This document shows positions 2,668 through 28,863 of a DNA stretch of 57,216 bases, piece after piece. The stretch is from Piscinibacter sp. Its GTDB lineage: Bacteria; Pseudomonadota; Gammaproteobacteria; Burkholderiales; Burkholderiaceae_C. The stretch spans positions 1-57,216 of the forward strand of contig JAHBZL010000034.1 of NCBI GenBank assembly GCA_019635485.1, given 5' to 3'. The stretch's first letter is position 1. Every line of letters starts with the position of its first letter. The position numbers and the translations under genes are program-made. Under the pieces are notes generated by a model. The model did not search any database and was not told where the DNA came from. It saw nothing but the letters and a program-made list of their open reading frames with translations.

Positions 2668-3302
2668 TCAAAGTCATGCTCTGCGACGACCACGCGCTGA
2701 TCCGGCGCGGCATCCGCGACACGCTGTCGGACGCGCCGGACATCCAGGTCATCGGCGAGGCGGGCGACTACGGCGAACTGCGCGAACTGCTGCGCAAGCA
2801 TGCCGCCGACGTGCTGGTGCTGGACATCAACCTGCCTGGCGGGCGCAGCGGGCTGGACGTGCTGCACGTGCTGAAGGACGAGGGCCTGCCGATGCGCGTG
2901 CTGGTGGTCTCGATGTACCCGGAGGACCAGTACGCGATCCGCGCGCTGCGCGCCGGCGCGTTCGGCTATGTCAACAAGGGCGGGGATCCCGCGCTGCTGG
3001 TCAATGCGGTGCGCACGGTCGCGCAGGGCCGCAAGTACGTGACCCCGGAGATCGCGCAGATGCTGGTCGAGAGCCTGACCGCGCCGGTGGTCGAGAACTC
3101 GCACGAGAAGCTGTCCGACCGCGAACTGCAGACGCTGGTGCTGATCGCCTCCGGCAAGCGGCTGTCGGATATCGCCGAGGAGCTCAAGCTCAGCCCGAAG
3201 ACCGTCAGCGTCTACCGGGCGCGCGTGCTGGAGAAGCTGTCGCTCGCCAACAACTCCGAGATGACCGTCTACGCGATCCGGCACGGGCTGGTCGGCCAGT
3301 AG
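2664..3302 (+). CDS. LuxR/NarL-family response regulator
   Basis: 212 residues: receiver domain with D8/D9 and phospho-acceptor D54 (LVLDINLPGG), then a LuxR-type helix-turn-helix at about 145-205 (LSDRELQTLVLIASGKRLSD, followed by LSPKTVSVYRARVLEKL). The GTG start at 2664 overlaps the kinase stop (GTGA) and has GGGGGAG just upstream, so it is translationally coupled to the kinase. It is the output partner of the preceding REC-HisKA_3 kinase; target genes are unknown. Confidence 0.88.
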   Translation: MIKVMLCDDHALIRRGIRDTLSDAPDIQVIGEAGDYGELRELLRKHAADVLVLDINLPGGRSGLDVLHVLKDEGLPMRVLVVSMYPEDQYAIRALRAGAFGYVNKGGDPALLVNAVRTVAQGRKYVTPEIAQMLVESLTAPVVENSHEKLSDRELQTLVLIASGKRLSDIAEELKLSPKTVSVYRARVLEKLSLANNSEMTVYAIRHGLVGQ

Positions 3303-3362
3303 GCGCCCCGCGGCCGCGCGGCACCTGCGGCGTGCGTCACGCCCGCCCCGACTTCCGCGGCC

Positions 3363-3389
3363 TCAAGTTGTGCCCGGCGCGGCCGAAAG
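3363..3389 (+). promoter_or_regulatory. Sigma-28 (FliA)-type promoter upstream of the GGDEF-EAL gene
   Basis: TCAAGTTG (3363-3370), an 11-base spacer, then GCCGAAAG (3382-3389). Each half matches TAAAGTTT / GCCGATAA in six of eight positions with the exact spacer. The predicted start is about 60 bases before the ATG at 3456. Confidence 0.6.
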
Positions 3390-3455
3390 CGCTGAAGATC
3401 TCGACCGGCGGGCCCGCGTGCGCCCGTCCCCAATGAACAAGAACCTCCCGGGCCG

Positions 3456-5492
3456 ATGTTGATCGCCGCCTGCTTCCTGGTGACGGCTTGCCTGCTCTGG
3501 CTGGCGGGCGAGGTGTCCGTGGCCGCCGCGGCGCGCCCGCGTGGGGTTGCGCTGGCCGGACTCGGCGCCGCCGTGGTGCTGGCCAGCTGCGGGCTGTGGT
3601 GGCCGGCGCATGCGCTGCCGCCGGACGGCACGCTGGCCGCGGCCGGCGGTCCGGCCGCGCTGCTCGCCTGGCTGCCCAGCCTCGGCCTGGCCGCACTGGC
3701 GGCCGTCACGGCGCTGGCGGTCTCGAAGCGCGCCTGGCTGCCGGCCCTCGGTGCCGGTGCTGCAGCACTGGCGGCGGCCTACACGCTGGTGATGCTGGGC
3801 CTGCCCGGCATGTTCCGCCTGACCGGCGGCGCCTTCGGCGTCGGCCTCGCGGTGGCGGTGCTCGCCTCCGCCATGGTCGGCCTGCACCTGCGCCTGGAAC
3901 ACGCCGGCACGGCCCGTGTGGTGCGCGCGGCCGGTGCGCTGGCGGTGGCCGGCGTGCTGGCGCTCGGCTCGGCGATCACCGCGCCGGCCGACGCCGGCGC
4001 CCGGCTCTCCACCTCCGACCTGGCGGTGCCGGTGGTGCTCGCTGCGCTGGCCGCCGTCGCGGCGGTGCTGCTGGCGGTGCTGCGCAGCGCGGCCCAGGCG
4101 GCGCCCGAGGCACCGGTGCGCCAGACCCGCCTGGCGGCGATCGATGGCCTGACCGGCCTGCCGACCCGCCTGTTCTTCGAGGAACGCCTGGCCCAGGCTG
4201 CGAAGCGGTGCGACACCCGGCGCGGCAAGCTGGCGGTGCTGTTCGTCGACCTGGACGGTTTCAAGCCAGTCAACGATTCGTTCGGCCACAGCTGCGGCGA
4301 CCGCGTGCTCGAGCAGGTGGGCGCGCGGCTGAAGGCGGTCGGCCGCAGTGCCGATGTCGTCGCGCGTGTCGGCGGCGACGAATTCCTGCTGCTGCTGCCG
4401 GGCTACTCGTCGCAGGAGCAGCTGGCGCAGACGGCCACCGGCCTGATCGAGGCGCTCAGCAAGCCCTACAAGATCGACGAGCGCGAGGTCGGCATCTCCT
4501 GCTCGGTGGGGATCGCGCTGTATCCGGACGGCTGCGACGCCGCCAAGCTGATCGCGCGCGCCGACGTCGCGATGTACGCCGCCAAGCGGGCCGGCGGTTC
4601 GCGCCATGCCTTCTACACCGCGGCGATGGACAGCGACGCGCAGCAGAACTTCGACATGATGCGCGACCTGCGTCAGGCGATGGCGAAGAACGAGCTGGAG
4701 CTGTACTTCCAGCCCAAGATCGATGCCAAGAGCGGCAAGGTCACCGCCGCCGAGGCGTTGATCCGCTGGCAGCACCCGACCCGCGGCATGGTGATGCCGG
4801 GCCAGTTCATTCCGCTGGCGGAACGCTCGGGGCTGATCGGCCCGCTCGGCAACTGGGTCATCGAGGCGGCCTGCAAGCAGGCGCGCGCCTGGCGCGACAA
4901 GGGCCTGCGCATGCGCGTCGCGATCAACGTCTCGGCCTACCAGATGCGCCAGGAAGACCTGGTCGACCGCATCGCCGACGCGCTGCAGCGGCATCGCATC
5001 CGGCCGTCGCTGCTGACGCTGGAGATCACCGAGACGGCGGCGATGGAGGACACGCGCGCCACGCAGGAGACCTTCCGCCGGCTCGGCGAGCTCGGCGTGC
5101 ACCTGTCGATCGACGACTTCGGCACCGGCTATTCGAGCCTCGCGTACCTGCGCAAGCTGCCGGCCGAGGAGCTGAAGATCGACCGCGTGTTCGTGCAGGA
5201 CGTCGAGCACAGCGCCGACGCGCGGGCGGTGGTCGACGCGGTGCTGAAGCTGTCGCACGCGCTCGGCCTGAAGGTGGTCGCCGAAGGCGTGGAGAACCCG
5301 CGCCAGCAGCAGATCCTGGTCGAACTCGGCTGCGACGAGTTGCAGGGTTTCCTGTTCGCCAAGCCGATGACGGCCCGCGCACTGCTGCTGTGGGCGATCG
5401 GCGACCGGTCCGAGGCGGCGGTCTTCCGCAACTCGCTGTTCGGCGAGACCCGCCAGGGCTCGCGCCACGCGGCGCGCTCGGTGGTGGCCTGA
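3456..5492 (+). CDS. Membrane GGDEF-EAL protein with degenerate MHYT-like sensor
   Basis: 678 residues. Residues 1-215 hold about seven hydrophobic segments laid out like an MHYT domain, but the signature residues are lost (WWPAH and VMLGLPGM where MH[YF]xGM is expected). The GGDEF motif is intact at G306-F310, with inhibitory I-site RSAD at 297-300. The EAL motif is at 433-435, followed by DDFGTGYSS. Both diguanylate cyclase and c-di-GMP phosphodiesterase sites therefore look complete. The I-site suggests product inhibition of the cyclase. A sigma-28-type promoter just upstream suggests flagellar co-regulation. The MHYT link is inference. Confidence 0.9.
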   Translation: MLIAACFLVTACLLWLAGEVSVAAAARPRGVALAGLGAAVVLASCGLWWPAHALPPDGTLAAAGGPAALLAWLPSLGLAALAAVTALAVSKRAWLPALGAGAAALAAAYTLVMLGLPGMFRLTGGAFGVGLAVAVLASAMVGLHLRLEHAGTARVVRAAGALAVAGVLALGSAITAPADAGARLSTSDLAVPVVLAALAAVAAVLLAVLRSAAQAAPEAPVRQTRLAAIDGLTGLPTRLFFEERLAQAAKRCDTRRGKLAVLFVDLDGFKPVNDSFGHSCGDRVLEQVGARLKAVGRSADVVARVGGDEFLLLLPGYSSQEQLAQTATGLIEALSKPYKIDEREVGISCSVGIALYPDGCDAAKLIARADVAMYAAKRAGGSRHAFYTAAMDSDAQQNFDMMRDLRQAMAKNELELYFQPKIDAKSGKVTAAEALIRWQHPTRGMVMPGQFIPLAERSGLIGPLGNWVIEAACKQARAWRDKGLRMRVAINVSAYQMRQEDLVDRIADALQRHRIRPSLLTLEITETAAMEDTRATQETFRRLGELGVHLSIDDFGTGYSSLAYLRKLPAEELKIDRVFVQDVEHSADARAVVDAVLKLSHALGLKVVAEGVENPRQQQILVELGCDELQGFLFAKPMTARALLLWAIGDRSEAAVFRNSLFGETRQGSRHAARSVVA

Positions 5493-20841: not shown

Positions 20842-20894
20842 ACCCCGGACGCCGGGCCGTCCGTTCAACCGGGGACCTACTGGAGGGAATGCCC

Positions 20895-21254
20895 ATGAAC
20901 TGGTTCATCGACGTGGTCAAGAAGTACGCGGTCTTCAACGGGCGCGCGCGCCGCAAGGAATACTGGATGTACGTGCTGTTCTACATCCTGATCTACGTCG
21001 GCCTGTTCATCATCGAGTCGCTGGTCGGCAGCCCGGGCATCCTGGTGCTGATCCTCGGCCTCGGCCTGCTCGTGCCCAGCATCGCGGTGACGATCCGGCG
21101 CCTGCACGACACCGACCGCAGCGGCTGGTGGATCCTGATCGGCTTCGTGCCGCTGGTCGGCGGCATCGTGCTGCTGGTCTTCATGTGCCTGGACGGGACC
21201 AGCGGCGCGAACCAGTACGGGCCCGATCCGAAGGGCGCGGCCGCGCCGGCCTGA
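20895..21254 (+). CDS. DUF805 membrane protein
   Basis: 119 residues. It begins MNWFIDVVKKYAVFNGRARR, the usual DUF805 opening with FxGRARRxEYW, followed by three hydrophobic segments, TIRRLHDTDRSGWW and the tail GANQYGPDP. The function of the family is not established. GGAGGG at 20882-20887 favours the ATG at 20895 over the ATG two codons upstream at 20889, which would sit almost on the ribosome site. Confidence 0.88.
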   Translation: MNWFIDVVKKYAVFNGRARRKEYWMYVLFYILIYVGLFIIESLVGSPGILVLILGLGLLVPSIAVTIRRLHDTDRSGWWILIGFVPLVGGIVLLVFMCLDGTSGANQYGPDPKGAAAPA

Positions 21255-21277
21255 GAGCGACCGGCCGGCGCGTGGCC

Positions 21278-23959
21278 TCAGCGGCGCGCCGGCCGCTTCG
21301 GCGGGCTCCCGAACGGCTGCACCACGCCGTCGACCTCGATCTTCAGCACGCCGTCGGTGTCGATGAACAGGCGGCCGATCGGCACGCCGCCGGTGCTGAG
21401 GATGACCTCGCCCGACACCACCAGCCCGCCGGCGGTCACCGACAGCTGGTACGCCCCGCTGCCGACGTAGCCCACGCCGGCGACCGTGAACGCCAGGTTG
21501 TTGTACGTCACGTTCAGCCCGACGGGCTGCCCGCTGGCCGTGACCTCCGTGTCGGTCGTCACCACCGATCCGCCGCTGAAGCTCGCGCTCAGGCCGCTGC
21601 CTTCGTTGCGCAGCGTCGCGCCCGCCCCGGGCGTGAAGCTCTCGACGAAGACGGTGTTGGCGCCCGAGATGGACTCGTTCACCGCGGCGCTGGCGGACCC
21701 GTTCGCCGTGATGTCGAACAGCACCGTGCTGCCGAAGCGGTCGGTGACCCGCATGTTGCTCACGTTCATCGTGGCCGACGCGATGTCCGGATTGAGCGAC
21801 GTGATGCTGAAGTTCACCGAGGTCTGGCCGTTGTAGGTCGTGTCGTTGTCGTCGCAGGCGATCGCGACGGCGCCGGTCGTCCCGGTCGTCGGCACCAACT
21901 GGCCCGGCGTGACCGCCGCACCGTTCAGCGTCACCGAGAGCGTGCCGCTGCTGCACACGGTGGCCGGATCGATGAACGCCGTGCCCTCGTCCGTCGTCGC
22001 CTCGAACGGCAGCAGGCCGGCCTGGCTGAACAGCGGCGCCATCCCGAGCAGGCGGACCAGCTCGATGCGGCTCGCGACGCTGCCGGTGGTCACGGTCAGC
22101 GTCGCGTTGGCGCTGGTGACGCTGCCCTGGCTGTTGCTGACGACGACGCTGAACACCGCGCCGTTGTCGGCCTGTGTCGCCGGCGGCGTGGTGTAGCTGG
22201 AGGCGGTCGCGCCGGCGATCGGCACGCCGTTACGGCGCCACTGGAAGTCCGGCGCCGGCGATCCGGTCACCGAGACGCTGAACTGCGCGGTCTGGCCGAG
22301 GCCGACCGTCCGGTTCTGCGGCTGCGCCGTGATGGTCGGGGCCGAGAGCACCGGGCCGGTGACGCTCAGCGTCGCCTCGGCGCTGAGCACGCTGCCGCCG
22401 GCGTTGCTGACGCGCACGCGGAACACCGCACCGTGGTCCGCCAGTGCGGTCACCGGGATGGTGTACGCCGCGCCGTTGGCACCGGCGATGTCGGTACCGT
22501 CTCGCTGCCACTGGTAGGCCAGCGGCGCCGTGCCCGTGGCCGTGACGCCGAAGGTCGCGGCGGCACCTGCAGGAACGGCAAGCGAGGCCGGCTGCATCGT
22601 GATCGTCGGCGGCACCGGTGCCGCCACCGTCAGCGTCGCGCCGTCACTGGTCACCGAACCCGCGGCGTTGTCGACGACGACGTCGAACACGGCGCCGTCG
22701 TCGTCCTGCGCGACGGCGGCGATGAAGTGCACGTCGCCGCGCGCCCCCGCGATCGGCACGCCGTTGCGCCGCCACTGGTAGGCCAGCGGCCGCGTGCCGC
22801 TGGCGACGACGGCGAAGTAGGCGCTGCCGCCGGTGAGCGCCGCAAACGCCTGCGGCTGCTGCACGATCGTCGGCGGCTGGGCGGCAGCGGAGATCACCAG
22901 GCAGACCGGCAGCGTGATGTCGGACTCGGCGGGCCCGGCGACGACGCTGTTGGAGGTGTTCGCACCCTCCACGTGAATCGTCGCCTGGCCGCCGCGCAGC
23001 AGCGCGAGTCGGAAGTGGCCCTGTGCATCCAGACCCGTGGTCGCGCTGCCCGCGTAGTCGAGGCCGACGCTGATCGCCAGGCCCTGGGTCACCGGCGCAC
23101 CGGTGTCGGTGACGGCGCAGCCGTCGACGAAGATCGTCGCGGCGACCTGGTCGGCATTCCAGGTCGTGAAGTGCGTGACGCTGCCCTCGTACCAGCGCTC
23201 GCTGCCGCTGCCGGCCAGCACGGCGTCGCCTTCCTGCACCCAGCGCCCGGTGCTCTCGTCGAGGTAGAAGAGCGGGATCGTGGAAGGCACATCGGCCGAG
23301 CGCGAGGCGAGCGGGATGCGGATCGTTGCGCTGCTGCCGGCCTTCAGCTGCAAGGCCGCGCCGTTGCTATCCGTCAGCGTGACGTTGAGTGCGCCGAAGC
23401 TCTCGAGGGTCTCGCCTGCGCTGGTGGTGAAGTCGCCCGGCATGCTCTGCGGGTCGGTCCCCGGGTCGATCGGCGTCACCCGCACCGTGACGGCACCGGC
23501 GGGTGCGGCGCCACCGGCGGCCGTCACCAGCGCGTCGGCCGGCAGGGCCACCTGTGCCGACGAGCCGGCGGCGCCGGCAACGCTGGCTTGCGCCGGATCG
23601 ATGACGGTGTCGGTGCCGGCACGCACCAGGCGTGCCGATGCCACCGCAGTCTGGTTGGCCACCACGGGCAGCGCGACCAGGCCGTCGAGGAAGTCTGCCG
23701 CCTGGATCTTCAGCAGCACGCGCGAGCCGGCTGCCACGTCCGTGAGCGTGAAGCGGCCGTCGGCATCGGTCGTGGCCGACTGCGCGCCGGCCGAGACCTG
23801 TGCGCCGGCCACCGGGCTTGCATCCGAACTCGCCACCACCGTGCCGGACACCGACCCCAGGGCCGGAGGAGGCGGCGCGTCGTCGCCTCCGCCGCAGGCG
23901 GCGACGCCGAGGCACAGCACGAGGGGTGCGAAAAGGCGGCGCAGGTGGTGCGTGGACAT
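21278..23959 (-). CDS. Large surface lipoprotein with carboxypeptidase-regulatory-like and three Ig-like domains
   Basis: 893 residues. Lipobox GVAAC with C22 lipidated, then a low-complexity Gly/Asp/Pro stretch. Residues about 35-110 look like a carboxypeptidase-regulatory-like fold (GSVSGTVVASSDASPVAGAQ). Residues 130-350 are beta-rich. Three Ig-like repeats follow at about 361-447, 448-540 and 541-622, each with P.I..QP, YQW or FQW, and a closing ATLTV. The C-terminal 270 residues are unassigned. Likely an outer-membrane or surface protein involved in binding. It is divergent from the unknown-protein/CHAT operon and shares its upstream region. Confidence 0.75.
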   Translation of the reverse strand: MSTHHLRRLFAPLVLCLGVAACGGGDDAPPPPALGSVSGTVVASSDASPVAGAQVSAGAQSATTDADGRFTLTDVAAGSRVLLKIQAADFLDGLVALPVVANQTAVASARLVRAGTDTVIDPAQASVAGAAGSSAQVALPADALVTAAGGAAPAGAVTVRVTPIDPGTDPQSMPGDFTTSAGETLESFGALNVTLTDSNGAALQLKAGSSATIRIPLASRSADVPSTIPLFYLDESTGRWVQEGDAVLAGSGSERWYEGSVTHFTTWNADQVAATIFVDGCAVTDTGAPVTQGLAISVGLDYAGSATTGLDAQGHFRLALLRGGQATIHVEGANTSNSVVAGPAESDITLPVCLVISAAAQPPTIVQQPQAFAALTGGSAYFAVVASGTRPLAYQWRRNGVPIAGARGDVHFIAAVAQDDDGAVFDVVVDNAAGSVTSDGATLTVAAPVPPTITMQPASLAVPAGAAATFGVTATGTAPLAYQWQRDGTDIAGANGAAYTIPVTALADHGAVFRVRVSNAGGSVLSAEATLSVTGPVLSAPTITAQPQNRTVGLGQTAQFSVSVTGSPAPDFQWRRNGVPIAGATASSYTTPPATQADNGAVFSVVVSNSQGSVTSANATLTVTTGSVASRIELVRLLGMAPLFSQAGLLPFEATTDEGTAFIDPATVCSSGTLSVTLNGAAVTPGQLVPTTGTTGAVAIACDDNDTTYNGQTSVNFSITSLNPDIASATMNVSNMRVTDRFGSTVLFDITANGSASAAVNESISGANTVFVESFTPGAGATLRNEGSGLSASFSGGSVVTTDTEVTASGQPVGLNVTYNNLAFTVAGVGYVGSGAYQLSVTAGGLVVSGEVILSTGGVPIGRLFIDTDGVLKIEVDGVVQPFGSPPKRPARR

Positions 23960-24020
23960 GGCTCCTCCGGGCGGGGTCGTTCGCGCCGATTCGACCCGAG
24001 GGGCGGCTGGCCGTGAACGG

Positions 24021-24047
24021 CGGGACTAGCGCGCGGCGCTAGTCCCG
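24021..24047. promoter_or_regulatory. 27-bp perfect inverted repeat in a divergent intergenic region
   Basis: CGGGACTAGCGC, spacer GCG, then the exact reverse complement GCGCTAGTCCCG: a 12-bp arm with a 3-base centre. It contains two copies of CTAG, a rare tetramer in proteobacteria. It lies 62 bases upstream of the Ig-lipoprotein start and about 50 bases upstream of a CAGAAT -10-like element (24074-24079) facing the CHAT operon. It could be an operator for a dimeric regulator or a strong RNA hairpin. Confidence 0.55.
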
Positions 24048-24179
24048 GCGCGCCGCAGGCGTTGGCCGCGATCCAGAATGACGGTCGTCTGCGCCACCGG
24101 AAGTCGACCATGGCCCTCAGTGCCGATTGCGCGGCACCGCATGCCCCTGCACACTGTCCGCCCCGGAATGGGGCAGGGC

Positions 24180-25787
24180 ATGGTTCAAGGGGCCGGTACG
24201 TCCGAGGTCGAGCAGGGGCTGGCAGCCGCGCGGTCGGCGCTGGACCCGTGGCTGACTGCGCTCGCCGACCTGAAGACCTGGTTCGACGCGCAGCGCGAGC
24301 CGATCGGGCCCGGCGCCGCCGCGCCGGCCGAGCAGCCGCTGACTCTGCTGCGTGCGACGCTCGAGGCGCTGGCGCGCGGCCAGGATGCGATCCCGTCGCG
24401 TGTGCGCGCGGCGGGGCGCGAAGCGCCGCGCATCGACACGCTGCTGGCCGGGCGACCGGCCGTGGCGCCAGCCGAACGGGCCGAGCGCCGCCGCAAGGTG
24501 TTGTTCGACCTGGCCCTGTGGCGGGCACTGCAGGGGTTGCCGCAGGCACCCGGGGGTGGTGCGGCCGGGCCGGTGCTGGGGCGTCTGCACGGCGCGCTGG
24601 ACTTTGCCCTGGTCCCGGCGCCCGGCTTGTCGCCGTCGCTCGACTTTGCGTGCAGCGCGTCCGCCCGCGGCTTCTTCGAGCAGGCCGTGCGGCAGGTGCT
24701 GCAGGCGTTGGCCAGGAAGGCCGGCGACGGCGCCGAAACCTACCTGCGCGTCGTGCCCGCGCAGCCCTTCGAGGCCGGCGTACCGTCGCTGGTGGCCTGG
24801 AGCCAGGCCTGGAGCGTCGCGGTGGCCGGGGTCTTTCTCGACTACCTGCGGCGCCATGCGGGCGACGACCCGGATCAGGCGTTGCGCGCTCTGTGGGCCG
24901 GGCGCTTCGACGCGGTGCGGTTCCGTCCCGGCCCCGGGCTGACCGCGCTGCCGACGCACGCCGGGGCGCTGCATCTCGACCTGTGGACCTGCGTGGTGAA
25001 GGCACAGGTGCTCGCCTTCGAGTCGGAGCGCTGGCCGCGGCAGGCGGGCGGCATGTGCTGGCACGGCGTGCGCATCGACATGCACGAACTCTCCGCGCCG
25101 GCCGGCGGCATGGGTGTCGAGTCGCTCTACCGGGTGGTCTTCATCGATCGCCTGCAGGCGGCGCTGGCCGCCGGCGCGTGGCCTGACGGCGAGCCGAGCG
25201 CGGCCGCAACACCGTCCGGCGAGCACACCATCGCGATCGAGATGGACCGTCCGCACCCCGGCCACCTGCCCAACCTGAGGCTGCTGCTGCGCTGGCGCGA
25301 CCCTTCGGGCGGGCCGCTGCGCTTTGCCGGCGACCTGGCGGGCGACCCTTCCGGCGAGGCGCTGCGGCGCTGGCTGGCGCGCCACGACGAGGCCGGTCCC
25401 GCGCAGCGGCTGCCGAACGCCATGATCGACTGGCGGGCTCCGCCCCAAGGAGCCACCGGGCAGGGCCCCGAGGCGCTCGGCCACGCGGCGCTCTGGCAGG
25501 CGCTGCCGGCCGACGTGTTGTGGGTCGATCCGGCGCTGGTGGTCTGCGTCGACGAGGCCTGGTACGAGTTGCCGGTCGAACTGCACGACGATCCGGCCGC
25601 AGGGCGCACCTGGTGGACGCTGCCGCCCGGCGCCGACCCGTTGCCCGGCGCGCTCGACCGGGCCACGTTGTGCCGGGCGGCCGGCAGCGCCGGCGCGCTG
25701 CAGTGGCTGGCCACCGAATCCGGCCTTGGTGCCTTCGTGATGGCGGCTCTCGATGTCGACGCCTGGCGCAACGGGCGGTCCGTCTGA
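24180..25787 (+). CDS. Unknown protein paired with a CHAT peptidase
   Basis: About 535 residues; I recognise no domain. No signal peptide or membrane segment is evident. Residues 1-130 look helical with a basic patch (AERAERRRKVLFDLALWRAL). The middle holds beta-like strands with TLRCH-free but Trp-rich stretches such as GGMCWHGVRIDMHEL. The end reads ESGLGAFVMAALDVDAWRN. Its last 35 bases overlap the start of the TPR-CHAT gene. Start choice is uncertain: in-frame ATGs lie at 24078, 24141, 24168 and 24180, and the residues before 24180 do not look protein-like. Candidate partner, regulator or substrate of the peptidase; that is inference. Confidence 0.6.
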   Translation: MVQGAGTSEVEQGLAAARSALDPWLTALADLKTWFDAQREPIGPGAAAPAEQPLTLLRATLEALARGQDAIPSRVRAAGREAPRIDTLLAGRPAVAPAERAERRRKVLFDLALWRALQGLPQAPGGGAAGPVLGRLHGALDFALVPAPGLSPSLDFACSASARGFFEQAVRQVLQALARKAGDGAETYLRVVPAQPFEAGVPSLVAWSQAWSVAVAGVFLDYLRRHAGDDPDQALRALWAGRFDAVRFRPGPGLTALPTHAGALHLDLWTCVVKAQVLAFESERWPRQAGGMCWHGVRIDMHELSAPAGGMGVESLYRVVFIDRLQAALAAGAWPDGEPSAAATPSGEHTIAIEMDRPHPGHLPNLRLLLRWRDPSGGPLRFAGDLAGDPSGEALRRWLARHDEAGPAQRLPNAMIDWRAPPQGATGQGPEALGHAALWQALPADVLWVDPALVVCVDEAWYELPVELHDDPAAGRTWWTLPPGADPLPGALDRATLCRAAGSAGALQWLATESGLGAFVMAALDVDAWRNGRSV

Positions 25788-28700
25788 GGCCGCCGTCCGG
25801 GCGCATCGGCTGCGGCGCGCCGGCCGGCTGGAGGCGGCGCGCGCCTGTGCCGGCGCGAGCCTGCAGCAGCTGCGGGCGGCCGTCGACGCGGGTGGACTGC
25901 CGGCGTTGCCGGCGTGGGCGGAAATGGTCGCGCTCGACGCCGGGATCGCGATCGACAGCGGCCGCTTCGAGGGCTTGGCAGAGCGTCTCGAGGAGGCCCG
26001 GCGCGAGCTGCTCGCCGCTGCCGGCACCGATGGCGCGGCGGTGCAGCTCGCGATGGCACGCCTGCAACTGGAGGCCGGGCGGCTGCACGCCGCGCAACAG
26101 CATCTGGCACCGGCGTGCGAGCACTTGGCCGGCGCGCTCGCGGTGCCGCCGCGCCGCACGCTCGAAGGCGAGGCCGGGGCCTGTGTGCGCATCCGCGCGC
26201 TGGCCGGGCTGGGCGCGGTGCTGTGCATGCACGCCCGCCACGCCGAGGGCCTGCCGAGACTCGAGCAGGCGCTGGCGGAAAGCGAGGCGCTGCCGGTCGA
26301 GTCGGTGCGCTACGAGCGCGCCCGCATCCTGATCGGCCTGTCCGCCGCGCACTTCGAGCAGCACCGGCTGGACGAGGCGCAGCGCCGCATCGAGCAGGCG
26401 CGAAGCACGCTGCTGCCGCTGGTGCACGCGCGGCGTGCCGGCGCGCGGGCCGACCTCGGGCGCGTCGGCATCAACCTGGGCAGCATCCATTCGCGTGCCG
26501 GCCGGCTGGAGGCCGCCGTGCAGGCCTACCGCGGCGCCATCGACGAGCTCGACCGCGCGGCGCGCACCGTCGCGCACGGCGGCGACGCGCTGCGCCTGCG
26601 GGCCACCCGCGCGAAGGCGTCGATGAACCTGGGCTACACGCTGTTCAAGGCCGGCGACTTCGACGCCGCACAGCGCCACCTGGCGATCGCGCTGCGCCGC
26701 TACGGCCCGCTGCTGCAGAGCCGGCCGGAACTGCGCGCCGACCTCGCGCGCACCCGTGTCAACGCCGCCCATCTGGCGGCGCGGCGCGGTGCCGCCGGGC
26801 GTGCCGCGGCGCTGTATGCCCGCGGCCTGCGCGACTTCGAGACGATCATGCGCGAGGCCGGCACGGCGCATCTCGCCGCGGATGCCGCCAACGCTCGCCT
26901 CGGCCTGGCGCGCGCAGCGCTGCTGCGGGGCCAGGCGCGACGGTCGGCGCGCCTGTTCACGGCGGCCCTGGCCACCTTGCGCGACCTGACCCGCGAGGGG
27001 GCCCTGCACCACGCGCATGCCTGGCTGCGGGCCTGGGTCGAGCAGGCTTCGCTGCTGCTCGGGACGACCCTGGCCCCGGCACAGGTCGAGGTCGTGCTGG
27101 CGGCGCTGCTGCAGGCCCTGCGGCAGCCGCCGCCACGCGCACTCGGCCGCCACGAGGAGCCGCTGCGCGGGCTGGCGGCGGCACTCGACGCCGTGCAGGC
27201 CTGGAGCACCGCCGCGCCGCCGGACGCCGCCCGGGGCGCCGCGGCGCAGGCGCTGGCGACGGCGGGCCTGCGGTACCTGCTGGACGCCACGGCCCAGGTG
27301 CTGTCCGACTCCGCGCCCGACTGGCTGGCCGGTCACCAGGCGACCGTGCAGGCCTGGGTGCGGCGCCTCGGCGAGGCCGCCGCGGCGGTGCCCGGTGCGC
27401 CGCGGCTGCTGGCGCAGTGGTTCCTCTGCACCCGCGGCCTGCGGGCGCAGCGGGTGGCCCTGGCCGACGGTACGGATCCGCGCGTGGGCGCGCTGCGCGC
27501 CGCGCTCGACGAGCTGAACCGGCTCGAGAGCGATCTGCTCGGCGGCACCTGCCCAGGCGATGCGGACGACCTGCTCGGGCTCACCGACGCGGCGCCGGCG
27601 CAGGCAGAGTCGGCGGGGCCGGCCGTGCGCTGGCAGGCGCTGCGCGACGAGGTCGGCCGGCGCGTCGACGCCGCCGTGCGGCAGGGCCTGCTGCCGCCGG
27701 TACTGCATCTGGCCGCATCGGAAGTCGCGCGCGCCCTGGCGCCGCATCAGGCGGTCCTGTTCCTGGCCCGGCTCGACCGGACTCGCGTGCTCGCCGTGGC
27801 CCTGTGCGGCACACCCGGCAATGCCACGGCGCGCCACCGCCTGGTGCGCCTGCCGGATTCGGCCGACGCGCCCTGCGACCTGCTCAATGCGGCCGCACGG
27901 CAGGCGCTGCGCCACGACTTCGGTGCGCAGCCGTCGCGTGACCCGCGGTCGCACGAGCCGCGCCGCATCGACCTCGAGGCGGCGCGCGCGCCGGCGCCGG
28001 GCGACCGGCTCGCGCTGGCGGCGCTGCGCGCACTCGCCGAAGACGCCGTCGCCCCGACGCTGCGCGAACTGCAGGCGGCCGGCAGCAGCGAGATCGCGAT
28101 CGTGCCGGCCGACGACCTGCACCTGCTGCCCTGGGGCGTACTGCTGCGGGGCTGGACGGCGCCGGCGCTGTCGGTTGCCGTCTATCCGAACGCCGGGGCC
28201 TGGTGGCGCTGCCGCACGCTCGGCCCGGACGCCGCCGGCGCGCTGCCGCGCTGGGGCCAGGTCTGCGCGCCGCGTGCGGCCGGGGCGGCGCCGCTGCGCT
28301 GGGCCGAGATCGAGCAGCGCCAGTCGCAGCGACTGTGGGGCGCACCCGCCGAGGGGCCGCCCGACGCGCTGCTCGTGGTGGGGCACGGCGAACTGCCGCG
28401 CGGCAACCCCGCGCTGGCCGGGCTGCGGCTGGACGACGGCCGCGTGCTCGGGGCACACGAGGTGGCCTCCGGCGGCGCGGTCCGGCGTGTGCTGCTGTCC
28501 TGCTGCATGCTGGGGCGGACCGACGAGGCCTTCGGCGAGCCGCTGGGGTTCCTGTCCACCTGCTTCGCCTACCGGGCGCACTTCGGCATCGGCTGGCTCA
28601 CCGAGGTCCCGGACGAAGCGGCCTGTCTGTTCAGCCTGGCACTGCAGTTCGCGCTGCGCGCGGAACTCCGGTCGGGCCGCGCCACGCCCTCCTGGCACCG

Positions 28701-28863
28701 CGTGTTCCACGCCACCTGTGCCAGCATCGAGCGAGGCGTGTGGCCGGAAGGATTCGTGGACTGGCTGGGCGACGCCGCCGGCGAGCCGGGCCGGCCGGGC
28801 CCGGCCGTGCCGCCGGAGCCGCTGCGCCGCGTGCTCCCCTGGGTCGTCGCGCTGGGGGCCTGA
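25753..28863 (+). CDS. TPR-CHAT caspase-like peptidase
   Basis: 1036 residues. Residues about 60-400 are TPR-like helical repeats (GRLEAAVQAYRGAIDELDRA, NLGYTLFKAGDFDAAQRHLA). A helical middle follows. The CHAT domain spans about 680-1010: IVPADDLHLLPWGVLLRG, then catalytic His H878 in VVGHGEL and nucleophile C918 in LLSCCMLG, so the Cys-His dyad is intact. CHAT proteins are caspase-related peptidases that cleave partner proteins, often in immunity or cell-death pathways. It begins inside the 3' end of the preceding unknown gene and converges with zero gap on scpA. No Cas genes are nearby. Confidence 0.85.
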   Translation: MSTPGATGGPSEAAVRAHRLRRAGRLEAARACAGASLQQLRAAVDAGGLPALPAWAEMVALDAGIAIDSGRFEGLAERLEEARRELLAAAGTDGAAVQLAMARLQLEAGRLHAAQQHLAPACEHLAGALAVPPRRTLEGEAGACVRIRALAGLGAVLCMHARHAEGLPRLEQALAESEALPVESVRYERARILIGLSAAHFEQHRLDEAQRRIEQARSTLLPLVHARRAGARADLGRVGINLGSIHSRAGRLEAAVQAYRGAIDELDRAARTVAHGGDALRLRATRAKASMNLGYTLFKAGDFDAAQRHLAIALRRYGPLLQSRPELRADLARTRVNAAHLAARRGAAGRAAALYARGLRDFETIMREAGTAHLAADAANARLGLARAALLRGQARRSARLFTAALATLRDLTREGALHHAHAWLRAWVEQASLLLGTTLAPAQVEVVLAALLQALRQPPPRALGRHEEPLRGLAAALDAVQAWSTAAPPDAARGAAAQALATAGLRYLLDATAQVLSDSAPDWLAGHQATVQAWVRRLGEAAAAVPGAPRLLAQWFLCTRGLRAQRVALADGTDPRVGALRAALDELNRLESDLLGGTCPGDADDLLGLTDAAPAQAESAGPAVRWQALRDEVGRRVDAAVRQGLLPPVLHLAASEVARALAPHQAVLFLARLDRTRVLAVALCGTPGNATARHRLVRLPDSADAPCDLLNAAARQALRHDFGAQPSRDPRSHEPRRIDLEAARAPAPGDRLALAALRALAEDAVAPTLRELQAAGSSEIAIVPADDLHLLPWGVLLRGWTAPALSVAVYPNAGAWWRCRTLGPDAAGALPRWGQVCAPRAAGAAPLRWAEIEQRQSQRLWGAPAEGPPDALLVVGHGELPRGNPALAGLRLDDGRVLGAHEVASGGAVRRVLLSCCMLGRTDEAFGEPLGFLSTCFAYRAHFGIGWLTEVPDEAACLFSLALQFALRAELRSGRATPSWHRVFHATCASIERGVWPEGFVDWLGDAAGEPGRPGPAVPPEPLRRVLPWVVALGA

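Follow-up and report, generated by a model that had tools for sequence, protein, structure and literature searches.

A divergent TPR-CHAT peptidase gene overlaps an orphan gene at a variable site in a Piscinibacter genome

Two overlapping genes, P1 and P2, lie on the same strand of the window, by which we mean the whole 57,216-nt stretch of Piscinibacter sp. DNA analyzed (Table 1). P2 belongs to a known family, whereas its putative partner P1 is new. A first-pass annotation of this DNA had given the coordinates, lengths and strand of both genes and placed the start of P2 inside the end of P1, all correctly. The overlap of 35 bp suggests that the two genes are translationally coupled.

Table 1. 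Coordinates of the gene pair, its domains and predicted catalytic residues, its genomic site, and the sigma/CHAT/S8 loci
Feature	Position	Strand	Description
P1	24180..25787	+	535 aa; no family recognized (profile, PDB and PHROGs searches)
P2	25753..28863	+	1036 aa; divergent predicted TPR-CHAT peptidase
Overlap of P1 end and P2 start	25753..25787	+	35 bp
TPR-type helical array of P2	26020..26997	+	residues about 90-415; 16-sequence profile and model
CHAT peptidase core of P2	28081..28860	+	residues 777-1036
H878, predicted catalytic histidine	28384..28386	+	H in 49/49 aligned CHAT cores, P2 included
C918, predicted catalytic cysteine	28504..28506	+	C in 48/49 aligned CHAT cores, P2 included
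Ig-domain lipoprotein-like gene	window 21278-23959	-	divergent from P1; carboxypeptidase-regulatory-like domain
Variable site, sensor kinase gene to scpA	window 20860-28863; L047 4470-11256; L048 1984-8505; L051 10843-12148		
Sigma/CHAT/S8 module loci	L113 3813-9411; L114 4607-10182; L115 4815-10247; L116 4321-9910; L117 4570-7330; L118 3449-8783		

Because long false frames are common in DNA of 74-78% GC, the coding status of both genes was tested; on the opposite strand, the stretch of P1 and P2 has frames 703 and 1189 codons long. In a codon model trained on 15 other genes of the window and applied to all six frames, the P1 frame scored +0.18 and its best competitor -0.20; for P2 the corresponding values were +0.35 and -0.09. 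When P1 was scanned in 12 steps of 300 bases, its frame was the best of six in 11 (starts 24080 to 25580); the steps at the two edges (24080 and 25580) scored slightly below zero, and the last step (from 25730) lies mostly inside P2. Both genes look coding. Three genes outside the training set scored 0.58, 0.66 and 0.85, and the neighboring Ig-type gene 0.49; the codon usage of P1 and P2 is thus less typical for the genome, as is often seen when genes are foreign or young. Upstream of P1, the frame as far as 24078 has a non-coding look (score -0.77), which places the start of P1 at or near 24180; another in-frame ATG lies at 24168. Tryptophan is abundant (3.7%) and lysine scarce (0.7%) in the P1 protein. 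A scan of positions 23850-24300 found neither a promoter nor a terminator.

The annotation had read P2 as a TPR-CHAT protein with an intact His-Cys dyad at H878 and C918, and our searches support both parts of this reading. The Pfam CHAT model (PF12770) did not match P2; applied to the whole genome, it found two other CHAT genes and missed P2. These two genes lie on contigs 67 and 20 (L001 and L002), and their frames are 1104 and 2002 codons long, respectively. A profile of 15 CHAT proteins built without P2, all of which match the Pfam model, recovered P2 at 50.6 bits (E 1e-14 for 1000 sequences) over residues 778-974. When P2 alone was compared with PDB sequences, TPR proteins were found but no CHAT chain; a 16-sequence profile, P2 plus 15 relatives, reached a CHAT protein (8rot_B, 4.9e-9) and Csx29 (7y9x_B, 7.2e-7), as well as TPR chains.

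In the alignment, both residues of the predicted dyad fall in the columns of the His and Cys that CHAT relatives conserve; matches below 25 bits or 150 aa were left out of the set of cores. Part of the alignment rows are stop-to-stop frames, some of them with non-coding N-terminal residues. The sole exception in the C918 column is a Streptomyces plasmid row, which has a serine. A second cysteine, C917, directly precedes C918, and the alignment favors C918. Close homologs of P2 were not found; the conservation of the two residues is that seen in CHAT relatives. We conclude that P2 is, convincingly, a very divergent CHAT relative with a conserved dyad, and a predicted protease; no signal peptide was apparent by eye.

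The CHAT part of P2 matched a TPR-CHAT protein of Nonomuraea (tblastn E 4e-5; phmmer 4.8e-12 in a small set). From 219 candidate stretches in the genome collection, a three-row profile of P2, this protein and a Streptomyces sequence then retrieved 14 relatives, all with actinobacterial titles. The nearest sequence relatives of the P2 core that we found are thus actinobacterial TPR-CHAT proteins (L075-L088), which combine TPR and CHAT regions and share the invariant residues with P2. In a tree of the 49 cores, from which both L063 rows were also omitted, P2 grouped with the actinobacterial rows (99/100, with a bootstrap that had not settled); its placement is unsure because its branch is 2.69 and the actinobacterial rows had been fetched by their likeness to P2.

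Upstream of the core, Pfam TPR models gave weak matches below the cut-off (residues 148-217, 241-264 and 287-310). The structure of P2 was modeled from 15 sequences (mean pLDDT 57, pTM 0.45), and the helical array was the best part of this model: means over 10 residues ran from 58 to 92 between residues 91 and 410, except for 43 at 231-240, and residues 809-913, which contain H878, fell below a pLDDT of 50. The top six PDB matches of the model were all human separase (best 9hn5_A, E 6.1e-9), and Csx29 of the Craspase complex followed lower in the ranking (8eey_B, E 4.9e-4); the alignment behind the model is rich in CHAT relatives. The superpositions were loose, with rmsd 22-30 Å, TM-scores of 0.14-0.28 and 13-14% identity for separase, and rmsd 20-30 Å with the same range of TM-scores for separase and Csx29 together. 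Plain TPR proteins superposed better (LGN, TM 0.67 over the target), and we therefore read the separase and Csx29 matches as a likeness of layout that comes largely from the helical array.

The first gene was described in the annotation as having no recognizable domain, and this proved correct. Searches of Pfam, NCBIfam and PADLOC left P1 unmatched at E up to 5, and those of PDB sequences (best E 0.085, a portal protein) and PHROGs (best E 0.12) gave nothing convincing. A model of the lone sequence was uninformative (pLDDT 40); it gives a low-confidence hint of a helical N-terminal half and an alpha/beta C-terminal part. Sequence support for P1 as a Csx30 or a gasdermin was absent. Weak genome matches to residues about 425-528 (L005, L006, L008, L089 and L091) fell in what by eye are isoleucyl-tRNA synthetase genes, and were set aside as chance.

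We compared the locus with the corresponding stretches of seven congeners. Neither P1 nor P2 is present in any of them (0/7), and the pair is strain-specific within the genus. Around the pair, the order of parA, a MaoC-like gene, a two-component pair (by eye) and scpA (by Pfam) is kept in all seven, and the interval from the sensor kinase gene to scpA varies. The aligned flanks lie about 100 bases or less apart in 4/7; one congener carries a small membrane protein, a toxin-antitoxin-like pair and one further gene (by eye), and two carry the same small membrane protein with 6.5-6.8 kb of other genes. In the window, the cargo consists of the small membrane protein, the opposite-strand Ig-domain lipoprotein-like gene (Pfam), P1 and P2, and the stop codon of P2 directly abuts that of scpA (28863/28864). 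Since the pair is missing in congeners and the cargo varies, we regard P1-P2 as accessory and the site as general-purpose. A search for mobile-element ends yielded only matches of 11-12 bases between the two edges of the stretch. At the site in two congeners, a 1170-aa protein with an HEVGH motif (no Pfam match for the one tested) stands beside a CpXC-type protein.

Searches for a second instance of whole P1, whole P2 or the pair returned none, with few candidates scored per genome. Among 149 genomes of relatives, each protein was found in its own genome only (1/149). For P1, five of 399 genomes of the order had a match (its own, three isoleucyl-tRNA synthetases by eye and one short match, L007), as did five of 329 genomes of the family (its own, two isoleucyl-tRNA synthetases by eye and two short matches, L090 and L092). 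For P2, nine of 399 genomes of the order matched, namely its own and eight with short matches (seven in the TPR part and one, with internal stops, at residues 646-724), and the CHAT part matched in eight of 329 genomes of the family, its own and seven weakly. Three of these weak matches (L094, L096 and L098) are homogentisate dioxygenase by eye and were dismissed as chance. The three genome samples per protein overlap. Among the matches listed, the number of candidates scored per genome did not exceed 9, 3 and 4 for P1, 5 and 2 for P2, and 5 for its CHAT part; a three-row profile, scoring up to 97 candidates, found CHAT proteins in genomes that were blank in the P2 search. The single-protein searches may thus have missed a divergent relative of P1.

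Beyond these genomes, P1 had no relative among plasmids, phages and viral contigs. P2 matched one record of the plasmid collection, from Nonomuraea and in the CHAT part only, and had no match in phages (CHAT part) or viral contigs. Patterns of P2's own found no relative in 72 stretches of the genome collection, and a DNA search of E. coli genomes found nothing. Beside other CHAT genes, P1-like frames stayed at noise level (best E 0.32 in 14 loci, 0.12 in 9 loci and 0.079 in 14 loci), and a further 10 CHAT loci had none up to E 0.1. Among the open-access papers listed in literature searches, none concerned the P1-P2 pair.

Other CHAT genes of these bacteria have a recurrent neighborhood. When a profile was run with many candidates scored, CHAT cores emerged in 9 of 34 near genomes, counting the own one. 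Ten stretches were fetched, among them the six strongest matches from genomes other than the own; these six all come from the same family and three from the same genus. Their loci encode an ECF-type sigma factor, a protein of ~190 aa, a TPR-CHAT protein and an S8 subtilase. The sigma gene is present in 5/6 (L117 is cut by the contig end) and an S8 frame in 6/6, with Pfam support for Sigma70 regions in 3 tested, CHAT in 2 tested and S8 in 3 tested. Profiles of the sigma factor, small protein and S8 subtilase, from five sequences each, were then run on other loci. Beside the actinobacterial relatives of P2 (L075-L088), they found a sigma relative in 14/14, an S8 subtilase in 12/14 and the small protein in 8/14, in gene orders that differ from those of the same family. 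Congeners G003 and G005 have the full or part module. The sigma-CHAT-S8 linkage spans two phyla, and as a pattern it is firmer than the P1-P2 pair; none of the open-access papers listed in literature searches concerned it. On contig 4 of G003 (L120, 3042-10322), tandem CHAT-bearing frames of 977 and 1060 aa stand behind a weak sigma-factor relative (E 7e-5). Behind the sigma/CHAT/S8 genes of L115 lies a 546-aa frame (3102-4742), the start of which, by eye, we take to be TIR-like.

We considered whether P2 belongs to the sigma-CHAT-S8 group of its own family, and rejected this assignment: the profile of that group misses P2, a profile of other CHAT proteins finds it at E 0.0018 and the actinobacterial one at 1e-14. 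Pairwise, one CHAT protein of the own-family module (L113) matches the CHAT part of P2 at E 6e-7. The six frames of the window gave only noise with the sigma, small-protein and S8 profiles (best E 0.28, 0.078 and 0.62), and P1 matched no profile of this set, its best stretch reaching 1.5 bits.

The absence of Cas genes reported in the first-pass annotation holds for Cas1 (PF01867) and RAMP (PF03787), neither of which had a match in the own genome (84% complete), and a Craspase in the strict sense is therefore unlikely. PADLOC defense models matched neither P1 nor P2 (0 families at E up to 5), and we found no link of the pair to defense, immunity or cell death. An accessory location suits defense, but it suits any accessory gene equally.

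Known systems offer precedents for a CHAT peptidase acting on a neighbor. Csx29 is described as cutting Csx30, encoded in the same locus, via H615/C658, and Csx30 as a 565-aa protein that restrains a sigma factor (PMC10028731). TPR-CHAT is portrayed as separase-like and self-inhibited until triggered (PMC9729208). Gasdermins are reported to be cut by adjacently encoded proteases (PMC9612521), and partners encoded side by side with the proteases that activate them are presented as recurrent in defense (PMC12799240, PMC9612521).

P1-P2 resembles the Csx29/Csx30 pair of type III-E in its TPR array, its CHAT core with a His-Cys dyad and its nearby protein of partner size, about 550 aa. It differs in that P2 is longer than Csx29 (1036 versus 751 aa), that its genome gave no RAMP or Cas1 match, and that P1 has no PDB likeness by sequence, the level at which it was compared, although a Csx30 entry (8eey) is in the database; a distant relation is possible. 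With eukaryotic separase (Peptidase C50), P2 shares its layout of a long helical array with a caspase-like peptidase behind it, as the top matches of its model reflect; the superpositions are poor and no cohesin-type substrate is known. The neighboring scpA belongs to the conserved flank of the site. The actinobacterial TPR-CHAT genes differ from P2 in their surroundings, since their sigma, S8 and small-protein neighbors are missing at the locus of the window and no P1-like gene stands beside them. Bacterial gasdermin operons likewise place a protease gene beside its presumed partner; P1 has no Pfam family match. Gasdermins are much smaller than P1.

It is a plausible guess, made from the gene overlap, that P1 and P2 form a protease-partner unit. 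Our preferred reading, at a probability of roughly 0.35, is that they are an accessory stress or defense pair in which a triggered P2 cuts P1. P2 would be a cytoplasmic peptidase resembling separase and Csx29, and its TPR array, by analogy with those two proteins, would hold the CHAT domain inactive until a trigger is sensed. Once activated, H878 and C918 would cleave a partner, with the co-translated P1 the likeliest candidate, and this cleavage would release or destroy an activity of P1, leading to a stress or anti-phage response. The activity of P2, its autoinhibition, P1 as its substrate and any role in defense are inferred. We favor this reading because of the overlapping coding genes, the CHAT core with its dyad, the fold matches, the strain-variable site, and the Csx29/Csx30 and gasdermin precedents. 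It is weakened by the surroundings of the nearest relatives of P2, where an ECF sigma factor and an S8 subtilase occur and a P1-like gene does not. It is further weakened by the failure to find either gene, singly or paired, a second time, and by the lack of a fold assignment for P1, as it is by the failure of P2 alone to find a CHAT chain in the PDB, the poor superposition on separase, and the pLDDT below 50 in the part of the model around H878.

P1 might instead regulate P2, as an inhibitor or sensor resembling securin or an adaptor, with the substrate of P2 encoded elsewhere. Securin is described as restraining separase, and an RNA-guided partner as switching the TPR-CHAT of Craspase (PMC9729208). 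The position of P1, encoded first and overlapping P2, would suit a partner made before its protease; no sequence or fold link ties P1 to any inhibitor or sensor, and we consider this reading somewhat unlikely.

Lesser weight falls on the reading that the two genes have no functional link and are accessory neighbors by chance, P2 acting alone or with distant partners and P1 being an unrelated orphan. Unrelated genes do collect at this site in congeners, P1 has no relative, and no second pair was found; on the other side are the shared strand, the 35-bp overlap and the codon usage of both genes, less typical than that of the other genes tested. We think this rather unlikely, but from a single instance partner and passenger cannot be told apart for P1. 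Least probable is that P1-P2 is a cut-down sigma/TPR-CHAT/S8 module regulating a stress response, and not immunity, with P1 in place of lost partners: the neighborhoods of the actinobacterial relatives and the modules of G003 and G005 speak for it, but the own-family CHAT profile does not find P2, the window holds no relatives of the other module genes above noise, P1 matches none of them, and the tree, which places P2 with the actinobacterial rows, does so on a branch of 2.69 and with rows fetched by likeness to P2.

A bolder version of the preferred reading, that triggered P2 cuts P1, would make the pair a CRISPR-free counterpart of Csx30-Csx29, so far in one genome, in which the trigger is sensed directly through the TPR array and a dedicated, fast-evolving partner is cut; we hold this to be a long shot. 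If P2 does cut P1, separase-like TPR-CHAT proteases would form guide-free protease-substrate pairs outside CRISPR, which would bear on how Csx29 became tied to Cas7-11. The type III-E locus is described as also containing an ECF-like sigma factor, CASP-sigma (PMC10028731), and the sigma-linked CHAT module therefore makes the origin of the Csx29/Cas7-11 association approachable.
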